From contig NZ_LT984803.1 in NCBI RefSeq assembly GCF_900250115.1, positions 930,001 through 994,000 of the forward strand: a DNA stretch of 64,000 nucleotides, in the 5' to 3' direction. Of the stretch, positions 55,203 through 59,007 are shown in pieces (within the stretch, counting starts at the first letter, position 1; each line of letters opens with the position of its first letter). Both the position numbers and the translations under genes were made by a program. Origin of the DNA: Cupriavidus taiwanensis (GTDB lineage: Bacteria; Pseudomonadota; Gammaproteobacteria; Burkholderiales; Burkholderiaceae). The notes under the pieces were generated by a model. That model was not told the DNA's origin, did not search any database, and was given only the letters and a program-made list of their open reading frames with translations.

Positions 55203-55310
55203 GGGCGTCCGGGCGATCGGTGCGATCGGCAAGTCGGGGGCAGGGTAGCGATTATAAGCAATCGGCCTGCCTTGCCCATTCTGCGCCGGCCACGCCTGGG
55301 CCGGGGAGGA

Positions 55311-55736
55311 TCAGCGCGCCAGCGCCTGCACCCACCGCAGCACGTGCGGCCCGGCGATGGTGATCCAGGTGCCGCCGCACAGCACCAGCGCCAGCATCAC
55401 CGCGGCGCTGCCGAAGTCCTTGGCACGCTTGGACAGGCTGTGCCGCTCCAGCGAGATGCGGTCGACCGCGGCCTCGACGCTGGAGTTGAGCAGCTCCACG
55501 ATCAGCACCACCAGCAGCGTGCCCAGCAGCAGGATGCGCTCGACCGCCGTCGCCGGCACCAGGAAGGCGCACGGCGTCAGGATCACCACCAGGGTCAGCT
55601 CCTGGCGGAACGCGCTCTCCTCCAGCACCGCATAGCGCAGCCCCGACAGCGAATTGATGGCCGCATGCCAGGCCCGCGCGAGGCCCCGGTTGCCCTTGTG
55701 CGGATTCTGGTCGATCGAGTAGTCAGCGCTCTGCAT
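55311..55736 (-). CDS. dgkA: diacylglycerol kinase DgkA
   Basis: 141 aa, three transmembrane helices. DgkA motifs: RAWHAAINSLSGLRYAVLEE, VVLIVELLNSSVEAAVDRIS and RAKDFGSAAVMLAL. It phosphorylates diacylglycerol to phosphatidic acid in the inner membrane, returning lipid to phospholipid synthesis. The start at 55736 overlaps the preceding glycosyltransferase stop (55723) by 14 bp, so it is coupled to it. It is the third gene after plcP and agt, which make and use diacylglycerol. Confidence 0.95.
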   Translation of the reverse strand: MQSADYSIDQNPHKGNRGLARAWHAAINSLSGLRYAVLEESAFRQELTLVVILTPCAFLVPATAVERILLLGTLLVVLIVELLNSSVEAAVDRISLERHSLSKRAKDFGSAAVMLALVLCGGTWITIAGPHVLRWVQALAR

Positions 55737-56862
55737 GGCGGGCGGCGGCCTCTGCATTGGCGGGTCGGACGGCAGTTGCGGATGCGGTTTCGGCATGGGT
55801 TTGCGGGGCGGAAGGCTTGGCTGTGGCCGCCGCGGGCGCTGCGCCGCCCCGGTCCGGCCTGGTGGCGGCGAACGGCCGCAGGTGGGCCAGGAACTGCTCG
55901 GACGCGGCGCGCCACGAGAAGCGCTCGGCATGGGCCCGGGCCGTGGCGCGGTCGATGCGCAACGCTTCCAGGCAGGCTTCGCGCAGGTCTTCGTGCATCA
56001 CGCCGGCGGGACTGTCGCCGAGCACGTCGATCGGGCCCGTGACGGGATACGCGGCCACCGGCAGGCCGCTGGCCAGCGCTTCCAGCAGCACCAGCCCGAA
56101 GGTATCGGTGCGGCTCGGGAACACGAACACGTCAGCGGAAGCATACACCCGCGCCAGCTCGGGCTGGCTCAGCACGCCCAGGTAGTTGGCGCCGGGATAG
56201 CGCGCGCGCAGCGCCGGCAGCGCCGGGCCGTCGCCGACCACCCATTTGGAGCCGGGCAGGTCCAGCGCCAGGAACGCCTCGACGTTCTTCTCCACCGCCA
56301 CGCGGCCCACGTACAGGAAGATCGGGTGGGCGGTGTTGAGCACATTGGCGCGCTGCGGCGTGAACACGTCCAGGTCGACGCCGCGCGTCCACAGCACGGC
56401 GTTGTCGATACCGTAGCGCCGCAGGTCGTCGAGCACCACCGGCGTCGGCGCCATCACCGCCTGGGCGGGGCCATGGAACCAGCGCAGGAAGCGGTAGGTC
56501 CACGCCAGCGGAATGCCGAAGCGGGCCTGCACATACTCCGGGAAGCGCGTGTGGTAGGCGGTGGTGAAGGGCAGCCTGTGGCGCAGCGCATGGCTGCGCG
56601 CGGCCAGCCCCAGGGGGCCTTCGGTGGCGATGTGCAGGGCGTCGGGACCGAAGGCCCCGATGCGCCGCCGCACGCGCGCGCCCGGCAGCAGCGACAGCCG
56701 GATCTCGGGGTAGGTCGGGCATGGCACCGTGCGGAATTCCAGCGGCGTGATCATCTCGACCGTGTGGCCCATCGCCTCCAGTTCGCGGCGCGTGGACTTG
56801 AGCGTGCGCACCACGCCATTGACCTGCGGTTCCCAGGCATCGGTGACGATCAGGATCTTCAT
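55723..56862 (-). CDS. agt: GT4 glycosyltransferase, Agt-like (diacylglycerol glycosyltransferase)
   Basis: 379 aa GT-B glycosyltransferase of family 4. Start KILIVTDAWEPQVNGVVRTL is highly typical of Agt-like lipid glycosyltransferases, and EKNVEAFLALDLPGSKWVVG, FPSRTDTFGLVLLEALASGL (sugar-nucleotide EX7E motif) follow. C-terminal 45 residues are an alanine-rich disordered tail. In other bacteria Agt makes glucosyl- or glucuronosyl-diacylglycerol when phosphate is scarce, using diacylglycerol released by PlcP. Here it follows plcP by 72 bp and overlaps dgkA. AAGGAGG sets start 56862. The exact sugar cannot be predicted. Confidence 0.85.
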   Translation of the reverse strand: MKILIVTDAWEPQVNGVVRTLKSTRRELEAMGHTVEMITPLEFRTVPCPTYPEIRLSLLPGARVRRRIGAFGPDALHIATEGPLGLAARSHALRHRLPFTTAYHTRFPEYVQARFGIPLAWTYRFLRWFHGPAQAVMAPTPVVLDDLRRYGIDNAVLWTRGVDLDVFTPQRANVLNTAHPIFLYVGRVAVEKNVEAFLALDLPGSKWVVGDGPALPALRARYPGANYLGVLSQPELARVYASADVFVFPSRTDTFGLVLLEALASGLPVAAYPVTGPIDVLGDSPAGVMHEDLREACLEALRIDRATARAHAERFSWRAASEQFLAHLRPFAATRPDRGGAAPAAATAKPSAPQTHAETASATAVRPANAEAAARHAER

Positions 56863-56934
56863 GCAGCCTCCTTGGGCGCGGTGGAAGGGCAATGGGGATG
56901 GCGCCAGGCGGACCATGGCGCAAGCGTCCCGGAC

Positions 56935-57909
56935 TCAGCCGGCCACGGCAGCGCGGCGCCGCCGGCGCATGGCGGACGCAGGGGCGTCGAGCAGCGTGGT
57001 CCAGTAGACGATCTTCAGTTCGCCTTCCAGGGTTTCGACCAGCGCCGACAGGCTTTCGACCCAGTCGCCGTCGTTGCAGTAGAGCTGGCCGTTGACCTCG
57101 CGGATCTCGGCCTTGTGGATGTGGCCGCAGACCACGCCGTCGCAGCCGCGGCGGCGCGCCTCGTCGACCATCGCGCTCTCGAACGCGCCGATGTAGTTGA
57201 CCGCGTTCTTGACCTGGTGCTTCAGGTACTGCGACAGGGACCAGTACGGAAAGCCCAGGCGCGCGCGCAGGCTGTTGAAGTGCCGGTTCAGCGCCAGGAT
57301 CATGGTGTAGAGCGAATCACCCAGGTAGGCCAGCCAGCGCGCGTGCTGGACCACGCCGTCGAACAGGTCGCCATGCACCACCCACAGGCGGCGCCCGGTG
57401 GCGGTCACGTGCACCGCCTCCTCGCGCACGGTGATGTCGCCGAAGGCCATGCCGTCGAACTGGCGCGCGGCTTCGTCGTGGTTGCCGGGGACGTAGATCA
57501 CCTCGGTGCCCTTGCGCGCCTTGCGCAGCAGCTTCTGCACCACGTCGTTGTGGCTTTGCGGCCAGTACCAGCCGCGGCGCAGCTGCCAGCCGTCGATGAT
57601 GTCGCCGACCAGGTAGAGCTGGTCGGATTCGTTGTGCTTGAGGAAATCCAGCAGGTAATCGGCCTGGCAACCGGGGGTTCCCAGGTGGATGTCCGACAGC
57701 CAGATGGCGCGGTAACGCTGGATCGGATGCGGCTCGGGCGGGTAGCTTTCATGCGCTTCGCGCGGCGGCGCCAGCGTGGCGCTATCGAGCGCCGGCGCCA
57801 TGAAGGCGGTCACCGGCGCGGCGCGGCCGCTGTCAGCGCTGCGGCGCCACGGCGGCAGTTGCGAGGCCTTGGACAGATACCCGCGGGCAGATCGGATTGC
57901 TTGCACCAT
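56935..57909 (-). CDS. plcP: PlcP-like phospholipase C (metallophosphoesterase)
   Basis: 324 aa calcineurin-like phosphoesterase often labelled UDP-2,3-diacylglucosamine hydrolase. Metal motifs: LSDIHLGTPGCQADYLLDFL, LVGDIIDGWQLRRGWYWPQ, PGNHDEAARQF, VVHGDLFDGVVQHARWLA and VCGHIHKAEIREVNG, with HQVKNAVNYIGAFESAM. These segments match PlcP, which turns phosphatidylcholine or phosphatidylethanolamine into diacylglycerol in phosphate-starved cells. The following Agt gene and the PHO-box array just upstream support this reading. Start 57909 is chosen because the 58008 frame would run through the PHO box. It is not a lipid A (LpxH) gene by context. Confidence 0.85.
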   Translation of the reverse strand: MVQAIRSARGYLSKASQLPPWRRSADSGRAAPVTAFMAPALDSATLAPPREAHESYPPEPHPIQRYRAIWLSDIHLGTPGCQADYLLDFLKHNESDQLYLVGDIIDGWQLRRGWYWPQSHNDVVQKLLRKARKGTEVIYVPGNHDEAARQFDGMAFGDITVREEAVHVTATGRRLWVVHGDLFDGVVQHARWLAYLGDSLYTMILALNRHFNSLRARLGFPYWSLSQYLKHQVKNAVNYIGAFESAMVDEARRRGCDGVVCGHIHKAEIREVNGQLYCNDGDWVESLSALVETLEGELKIVYWTTLLDAPASAMRRRRRAAVAG

Positions 57910-57952
57910 GCCAGTCCCGGTTGCGGCGATGGCTGCATTCAGCCAGCCCGCG

Positions 57953-57992
57953 GTGACGGCGCCGTGACGAAAAGATGACTGACATATGAATC
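57953..57992 (-). promoter_or_regulatory. PHO-box array upstream of plcP
   Basis: On the minus strand four 7-bp units spaced 11 bp apart: GATTCAT, CAGTCAT, TCGTCAC, CCGTCAC, with 4-bp spacers (ATGT, CTTT, GGCG). The consensus unit is CTGTCAT/C; matches are 4, 6, 5 and 6 of 7. Two or more such direct repeats define PhoB binding. A -10-like CTGAAT sits about 11 bp after the last unit, and the plcP start 44 bp downstream. Phosphate-starvation control is inferred. Confidence 0.7.
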
Positions 57993-58026
57993 GTTGCGGC
58001 CGCGGCACTGCGCGGCCATCAGCGGC

Positions 58027-59007
58027 TCAGCGGCCGCGGGCGGACAGCTCGGCCAGTGCGTCGAGCACGGCACGCACCGCGGCGGGATGGCGCAGCAGCG
58101 ACACATGGCCGATGCCGGACAACGGGATATGGCCGGCGCCGTCGAGCCAGGCGGTGCAGGGCGGGCCCGCGATCGAATCGTGCCAGCTGAAGATCGAGAT
58201 CATGCGCGCGCGCAGCCGCGGTGTCTCGGCGGCCGCGAGCGCGCGCAGCCAGGGGCTGCCGCAACGCATCTGGCGCGCATTGTGGCCGCCGCCAAAGCGC
58301 GCCAGCGCGCTGCCGTGGTGCGGGCTGCCCAGGGTCACGATGCCAGCGCAGACGTCCTCGTCGCCGGCCAGCCGCAGCGCGGCGCGCGCGGCCAGGCCGC
58401 CCATGCTGTGGCATAGCAGCAGCGGCGCGCGCCCGGCCTCGGCGCGGATGCGCCGCATCGCCGCCAAGAGCGCGTGCGCGTAGTCGTCGATGTCGCCGAA
58501 CACGGGTTCCAGCTCGATCCCCTGGCAGCGGTAGCCGGCGGCGGCCAACGCCGGCTGCATGTCGAGCCAGATCGCCTGGCCGCAGGCGTAGCCGTGGACC
58601 AGCAGCACCGGCGGGGCATCGCGGCCCGGCCGCGCATGGTCGGCCGGCGCAAACGGCGCCCGCGCGCGAAAGGGCTGCAGCCAGTCGAACATGCGCAGCA
58701 CCGCCAGGCATTCCGCCGCGTAGCAGCGCATGGCATCGGCAAGCCGCAGCGGCTTGCGGGTGGCGGCGAGTTCAGCGGGCGGCGCGGGCGGGCGATTGCC
58801 GTGTCCGACCCACAGGCCGCGCCCGGTGAGCGCGAAAGCAATGGCAATGGCGCCGGCAAAGCCGCCCAGGATCAGCCCCGCGGCGGCGGCGAGCGCGCCG
58901 GGCCACGGCCACGCGGCGGTGTGTACCAGCGAAGCGGCAATGCCCAGCGCCGCGGCCGCCTGCAAGGTCACCGCGACGCGGCGAATGCCGGCGGCGCCCA
59001 GGCTCAT
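58027..59007 (-). CDS. alpha/beta hydrolase, membrane-anchored
   Basis: 326 aa. Two N-terminal hydrophobic helices (about residues 15-65) lead into an alpha/beta hydrolase domain: oxyanion loop LLVHGYACGQAIW, nucleophile serine in LLCHSMGGLAAR, then LGSPHHGSAL and the catalytic histidine in GIGHVSLLRHP. This resembles lipase/esterase proteins such as the EstA/LipA-like group. Likely inner-membrane-anchored. Starts with ATG 59007 overlapping the RDD stop by four bases (59004-59007), so it is coupled to RDD. Confidence 0.85.
   Translation of the reverse strand: MSLGAAGIRRVAVTLQAAAALGIAASLVHTAAWPWPGALAAAAGLILGGFAGAIAIAFALTGRGLWVGHGNRPPAPPAELAATRKPLRLADAMRCYAAECLAVLRMFDWLQPFRARAPFAPADHARPGRDAPPVLLVHGYACGQAIWLDMQPALAAAGYRCQGIELEPVFGDIDDYAHALLAAMRRIRAEAGRAPLLLCHSMGGLAARAALRLAGDEDVCAGIVTLGSPHHGSALARFGGGHNARQMRCGSPWLRALAAAETPRLRARMISIFSWHDSIAGPPCTAWLDGAGHIPLSGIGHVSLLRHPAAVRAVLDALAELSARGR

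Follow-up and report, generated by a model that had tools for sequence, protein, structure and literature searches.

A plcP-agt-dgkA gene unit behind a PHO-box-like array in Cupriavidus taiwanensis and its relatives, predicted to serve phosphate-starvation lipid replacement

In Pseudomonas aeruginosa, the genes plcP and agt (PA3219-PA3218) are associated with a Pho box and with glycolipids formed under phosphate limitation (PMC8528852), and in Methylosinus trichosporium OB3b plcP is likewise followed by agt, with glycolipids under phosphate limitation (PMC9239053). Here we describe a related unit in Cupriavidus taiwanensis, located on a 64,000-nucleotide stretch (NCBI RefSeq assembly GCF_900250115.1, contig NZ_LT984803.1, positions 930,001 to 994,000; hereafter the window), in which plcP and agt are followed by a predicted diacylglycerol kinase gene, dgkA, and preceded by a PHO-box-like array. 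The unit shares the order plcP then agt with both of these systems and the presence of a Pho box with P. aeruginosa, but it differs from both, as they are described in the accessible parts of those papers, by the inclusion of dgkA and by an array of four units.

Other described systems resemble parts of this arrangement. In marine plcP neighbourhoods of types 1-6, plcP also lies by lipid-making genes, mostly an agt homologue, with Pho boxes (PMC4796936), but the neighbourhood section of that paper mentions no diacylglycerol kinase and the words dgkA, Burkholderia and Betaproteobacteria are absent from its accessible text. In Pseudomonas putida BIRD-1, a diacylglycerol kinase is listed with PlcP, OlsA and OlsB as enriched under phosphate depletion, kinase and PlcP both being Pho-responsive there, but the available text describes no shared operon. 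Among the proteins quoted as lost in the phoBR mutant, this kinase (DagK) does not figure, although the paper's discussion describes the group as PHO-dependent (PMC5082522). The mcr-3-dgkA pair also puts a kinase gene next to one for a diacylglycerol-producing enzyme, and the kinase is described as recycling this membrane-disrupting lipid, but in the accessible accounts the diacylglycerol there comes from lipid A decoration and not from phosphate starvation (PMC7559476, PMC10285318). Within the same family, Pho boxes precede olsB in 21 of 43 Burkholderia sensu lato genomes, a similar PHO-type control of phosphorus-free lipid genes, but that report, as far as its accessible text goes, concerns ornithine lipids only and describes no plcP-agt-dgkA unit (PMC7814305).

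No description of the plcP-agt-dgkA unit was found in the literature searched, in which subscription papers were poorly covered, and no single paper there mentions plcP, agt and dgkA together. The first-pass annotation of the window had considered a unit closed by dgkA and led by this array to be worth describing. The three-gene unit does appear undescribed in that literature, but the novelty is narrowed by a diacylglycerol kinase already figuring among the starvation proteins of P. putida BIRD-1 in the accessible text (PMC5082522). The family-wide inclusion of dgkA is new; the PlcP-Agt system itself is already known. The features of the locus are as follows.

57953..57992, minus strand: PHO-box-like array, four 7-bp units at 11-bp steps (sequence, shuffles, conservation in relatives)
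57992-57986, 57981-57975, 57970-57964 and 57959-57953, minus strand: the individual array units (sequence)
57937..57942, minus strand: candidate -10 hexamer CTGAAT, 10 nt past the last array unit (sequence reading and a 29-row genus alignment)
56935..57909, minus strand: plcP, predicted PlcP-type intracellular phospholipase C, 324 aa (profiles, LpxH comparison, tree, relatives)
55723..56862, minus strand: agt, predicted diacylglycerol glycosyltransferase, GT4, with GRVAVEKN and FPSRTDTFG, 379 aa (Pfam, motifs)
55311..55736, minus strand: dgkA, predicted integral-membrane diacylglycerol kinase, 141 aa (PF01219, PDB match)
55251..55278, minus strand: sigma-70-like promoter match ahead of the downstream tetR-type gene (simple promoter scan)

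Predicted functions of the three genes

The three gene families were assigned consistently by Pfam profiles, separation from LpxH, Agt motifs and a DgkA structural match, in agreement with the first-pass annotation, which was also right about the same-strand order, the 14 bp shared by the agt and dgkA reading frames and the Cupriavidus-like genome. The PlcP protein contains calcineurin-like phosphoesterase domains (PF12850 and PF00149, 44.1 bits each, both above cut-off). It scores well below the cut-offs of two LpxH models (38.1 against 134 bits and 30 against 190.35 bits), and a separate LpxH gene is present elsewhere in the same genome (245.7 bits). In a tree built with a quick method, 40 PlcP rows were separated from 27 LpxH rows with 100% support in the Shimodaira-Hasegawa-like approximate likelihood ratio test (SH-aLRT; one row was only 23% filled). 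Grouping with LpxH had been named at the outset as the result that would speak against PlcP, and the opposite was found; model scores, the separate LpxH gene and the tree together rule out an LpxH reading of the phosphoesterase. PlcP is predicted to split phospholipid to diacylglycerol. A second plcP copy was seen in one Cupriavidus genome (L050, G041 contig 6), with an in-frame stop and on a short contig.

Agt is a GT4 glycosyltransferase by Pfam. Its two motifs correspond to the signatures GRVAxEKN and FPSxTDTFG reported, in the accessible text, for the characterised enzyme GTcp, in which Asp replaces the usual GT4 Glu (PMC8231724). Among Agt proteins of the family, GRVAxEKN is present in 58/58 and FPSxTDTFG in 57/58, and Agt is predicted to be a diacylglycerol glycosyltransferase, which may make glucosyl- or glucuronosyl-diacylglycerol. 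DgkA matches PF01219 (105.7 bits, cut-off 22.3) and PDB entry 3ze4 (E 1.1e-23 across residues 16-131). It is the sole match in the genome to PF01219, the one lipid-kinase family that the search covered. Among the best 80 of 467 relatives, the nearest named DgkA belongs to Cupriavidus (98% identity).

The PHO-box-like array and the phosphate regulon

The array upstream of plcP consists of GATTCAT, CAGTCAT, TCGTCAC and CCGTCAC at exact 11-bp steps. Against CTGTCAT, which we take to be the reference PHO unit, they match at 4, 6, 4 and 5 of 7 bases, in that order; the four units and their spacing are as first annotated, and calling three of them good PHO-box units was generous. Dinucleotide shuffling never reached the combined score of 19/28, either in 2000 trials on the 450 bp surrounding the start or in 2000 on the upstream 130 bp, and this is the top four-unit score of the window on both strands. 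The array is credible mainly through its conservation, more than through the window sequence alone. In 29 distinct genus rows, mean column conservation was 0.87 for the array units and 0.79 for the spacers, falling to 0.55 over the 27 bp upstream. From the array to the ATG, the 43 bp at 57910-57952 were conserved at 0.88, much as the units are, so conservation extends beyond the units themselves; the plcP ATG at 57909 is preserved in all 29 rows. A possible small hairpin (GGCTG-AATG-CAGCC, 57944-57931) lies in this interval and is broken in some rows.

We tested the array locus by locus (p<=0.05, 200 shuffles each), dropping loci short of upstream sequence (family set from 60 to 57, set from other families of the order from 19 to 18, named set from 80 to 69). 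It was significant in all 30 Cupriavidus loci, the window genome among them. In 28 of these the array fitted best at -83 relative to the ATG; one locus had it at -84 and another a unit further up, at -94. In a further group of longer Cupriavidus loci, 14 of which come from genomes sampled in the first set, the result was 20/20. Significant arrays were also found in 48/57 testable family loci, 66/69 testable named loci and 10/18 testable loci from other families of the order, and in 4/8 of the order loci chosen for plcP-dgkA proximity (L134-L141). The location varies by genus with the unit pattern kept: in Polynucleobacter the array is at -70 from the codon aligned with residue 65, and in Ralstonia at about -359.

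As a negative control we examined the upstream regions of 52 stand-alone dgkA genes, that is, genes outside any fetched plcP-agt unit (five are second copies). Only one (L182) had a four-unit array at p<=0.05, and general PHO control of dgkA is thereby ruled out. L182 belongs to family f34 and comes from a genome with no plcP match. The second dgkA copies found in some family genomes (L152, L153, L191, L192 and L193) have no array.

The genome encodes PhoB (347.7 bits, model cut-off 296.2). As a positive control, the genome's own pstS promoter contains a two-unit box (ATGTCAC-4-TTGTCAT) with the spacing of the array, reached in 0/500 shuffles; scored as a four-unit array, it gave a p of 0.03 only. 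The exact three-unit pattern occurs at two sites in the 7.0-Mb genome, the window array and one site before a probable olsB. The second array (L195:1501-2422; in the genome itself C1, 2150953 on) is 52 bp upstream of an open reading frame that matches OlsB (E 9e-49) and PF13444 but scores 166 bits, under the curated cut-off of 320, so that its product is probably, not certainly, the ornithine-lipid synthase OlsB. A Ppx/GppA-type gene adjoins this site and phoB is about 6 kb away. Both exact arrays precede genes for phosphorus-free lipids, which fits a single regulon.

Distribution of the unit within and beyond the family

Of 150 genomes from the family, 123 have plcP, 122 have agt and 128 have a PF01219 match. 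The order plcP-agt-dgkA is present in 30/30 genus loci and in 50 of 60 family loci, hand-picked across genera from the 123 plcP genomes (one, G213, is from the same genus); agt adjoins plcP in 57 of the 60. Six of the family exceptions have no dgkA within the stretch (L085, L086, L112, L113, L115 and L116, with L113 and L116 cut by contig ends); in the others dgkA is 6.6 kb off (L110), agt is missing (L091, L114) or plcP is broken (L117). A further set of 80 named loci, the best 80 of 467 relatives, has the order in 71. In the remaining nine, plcP falls past the contig end of an agt-dgkA pair (L260, L268, L288), the contig is cut 220 bp short of dgkA (L298), or dgkA has no plcP or agt nearby (L262, L295, L296, L297, L304), L296 corresponding to the L110 contig, on which 6.6 kb separates plcP-agt from dgkA. 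Two named loci, L262 and L264, are from metagenome-assembled genomes titled Caenispirillum and Acidobacteriaceae, which are probably wrongly binned. With the same order across genus, family and named loci, a triple peculiar to the window genome is ruled out. A plasmid search returned one weak match.

Linkage of plcP and dgkA also recurs elsewhere in the order. At E<=1e-40, plcP is present in 69 of 150 genomes of the order. Of these, 65 are outside the family, and in nine of the 65, from six families and in several gene orders, dgkA is within about 3 kb of plcP. These distances were read by eye against the PF01219 table, and split contigs may hide more. We estimate the chance expectation at well under one genome (about 0.25% per 4-Mb genome). 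The order plcP-agt-dgkA is present in G310, G226, G270, G266 and G069; in G251 and G294 a dgkA-glycosyltransferase pair lies further down, in G289 dgkA comes first and G291 is divergent. The glycosyltransferase of G251, G294 and G289 is only 32-36% identical to Agt. Loci L138-L141 (families f21, f15 and f18) have plcP, dgkA and a glycosyltransferase in another order or divergent. These results go beyond the first-pass annotation: the unit extends across the family and is not special to the window genome, and dgkA is again near plcP in other families of the order.

A quick tree was built from 134 short DgkA rows, 72 of them linked and 62 free. On it the linkage label requires seven changes, of which well-supported branches force at least two, and 56 of the 128 internal branches stay open. 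One set of 81 rows (67 linked) has a support of 94, three linked f42 rows fall elsewhere, and the branches do not settle the placement of L039 and L137. In these labels L138-L140 are scored as free despite dgkA being near plcP, and the free rows include contig ends such as L298.

Downstream of dgkA lies a TetR-type regulator gene with a sigma-70-like match on its 5' side (one found at 55278-55251, against a mean of 0.1 in 50 shuffles). This suggests that the three-gene unit probably terminates after dgkA. Upstream of plcP, an alpha/beta hydrolase gene (58027-59007) is on the same strand; it holds this position in 20/20 of the longer Cupriavidus loci as well as in the g56 and g36 loci fetched, and was not flagged there in Burkholderia-type genera.

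Regulation, alternative readings and the role of the kinase

We propose that phosphorylated PhoB would act on the array and drive plcP-agt-dgkA as a single transcript. PlcP would split phospholipid into diacylglycerol and phospho-headgroup, freeing phosphate, and Agt would join diacylglycerol to a sugar, giving a phosphorus-free glycolipid; both steps follow the accessible parts of published work (PMC8528852, PMC9239053, PMC4796936). DgkA would convert diacylglycerol unused by Agt to phosphatidic acid, a step modelled on recycling by mcr/eptA-dgkA, keeping a membrane-disrupting intermediate low and its backbone reusable. Removal of surplus diacylglycerol is, by this analogy, the most likely reason for a kinase in a phosphate-saving operon. 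Through the similar array before the probable olsB, ornithine lipids may join the same response. The unit itself is real and conserved, and most likely an operon for lipid replacement under PhoB control. We have high confidence in the part comprising PlcP, Agt and PhoB; the whole proposal, with DgkA as a diacylglycerol valve, we consider probable on balance.

Several observations weigh against this proposal. A score of 19 was also reached in one of ten shuffled whole windows, so the array of a single genome is no proof by itself, and a reversed control pattern gave one match in the 7.0-Mb genome, which makes the two exact-pattern sites weak statistics. No significant array was found in 9/57 testable family loci, including 6/7 loci of g42, and in four of these six (L083, L087, L125, L129) all three genes are present in order. 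DgkA consumes phosphate, which opposes phosphate saving. The gap between agt and dgkA reaches 392 bp in other genera, leaving room for a separate dgkA promoter, and stand-alone dgkA genes are without the array, so DgkA is not generally phosphate-controlled.

The last two points also favour a reading in which PlcP and Agt form the starvation pair and dgkA is a housekeeping neighbour with mainly its own transcription, recycling diacylglycerol from other reactions. Periplasmic glucans and lipid A decoration are other sources of diacylglycerol. As the sole PF01219 gene of its genome, dgkA should serve phosphate-rich cells also, and three g50 genomes (G096, G116, G130) have PF01219 with no plcP match. 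However, dgkA overlaps or nearly touches agt in 20/20 longer Cupriavidus loci (the dgkA start, taken at window residue 1, lies -26 to -2 bp from the agt stop), the three-gene order is kept in most family loci, proximity to plcP recurs in six other families in differing orders, and a simple scan of the minus strand over 55311-58300 found no sigma-70-like promoter match. We consider an independently transcribed dgkA rather unlikely.

The cost of the kinase would also be accounted for by a headgroup-exchange shunt, in which PlcP and DgkA turn phosphatidylethanolamine through diacylglycerol and phosphatidic acid into other phospholipids, with Agt as a side branch and lipids reshuffled as much as replaced. 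All the enzymes needed are predicted within one unit, but agt sits between plcP and dgkA and nearly always adjoins plcP in the family, and the shunt would spend ATP under phosphate starvation; we regard it as improbable. Naming would instead point to an LpxH-like enzyme and a unit serving lipid A: among 120 listed PlcP relatives, most named rows are UDP-2,3-diacylglucosamine diphosphatase, hydrolase or LpxH, and four of the five PDB matches to PlcP are LpxH. The search that listed these relatives supplied names but no PlcP that has been characterised. Given the low LpxH model scores, the genome's true LpxH elsewhere and the fully supported split in the tree, this is highly improbable, and the LpxH-type name that most named relatives of PlcP bear in these genera is apparently misleading.

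The proposed PhoB-driven operon would extend PlcP-Agt lipid replacement to a family with Cupriavidus, Ralstonia, Burkholderia-type genera and the freshwater Polynucleobacter, and it raises the question of what purpose a kinase that uses up phosphate serves in a response that saves it. As a tentative answer, much of Burkholderiaceae may have placed a DgkA-type kinase, the only one of PF01219 type here, under the phosphate switch, giving a PhoB-set branch point at which diacylglycerol passes through Agt to glycolipid or through DgkA to the phospholipid pool. Lipid replacement would then be graded and reversible, depending on the balance between the two, and the linkage may have arisen more than once for that reason.

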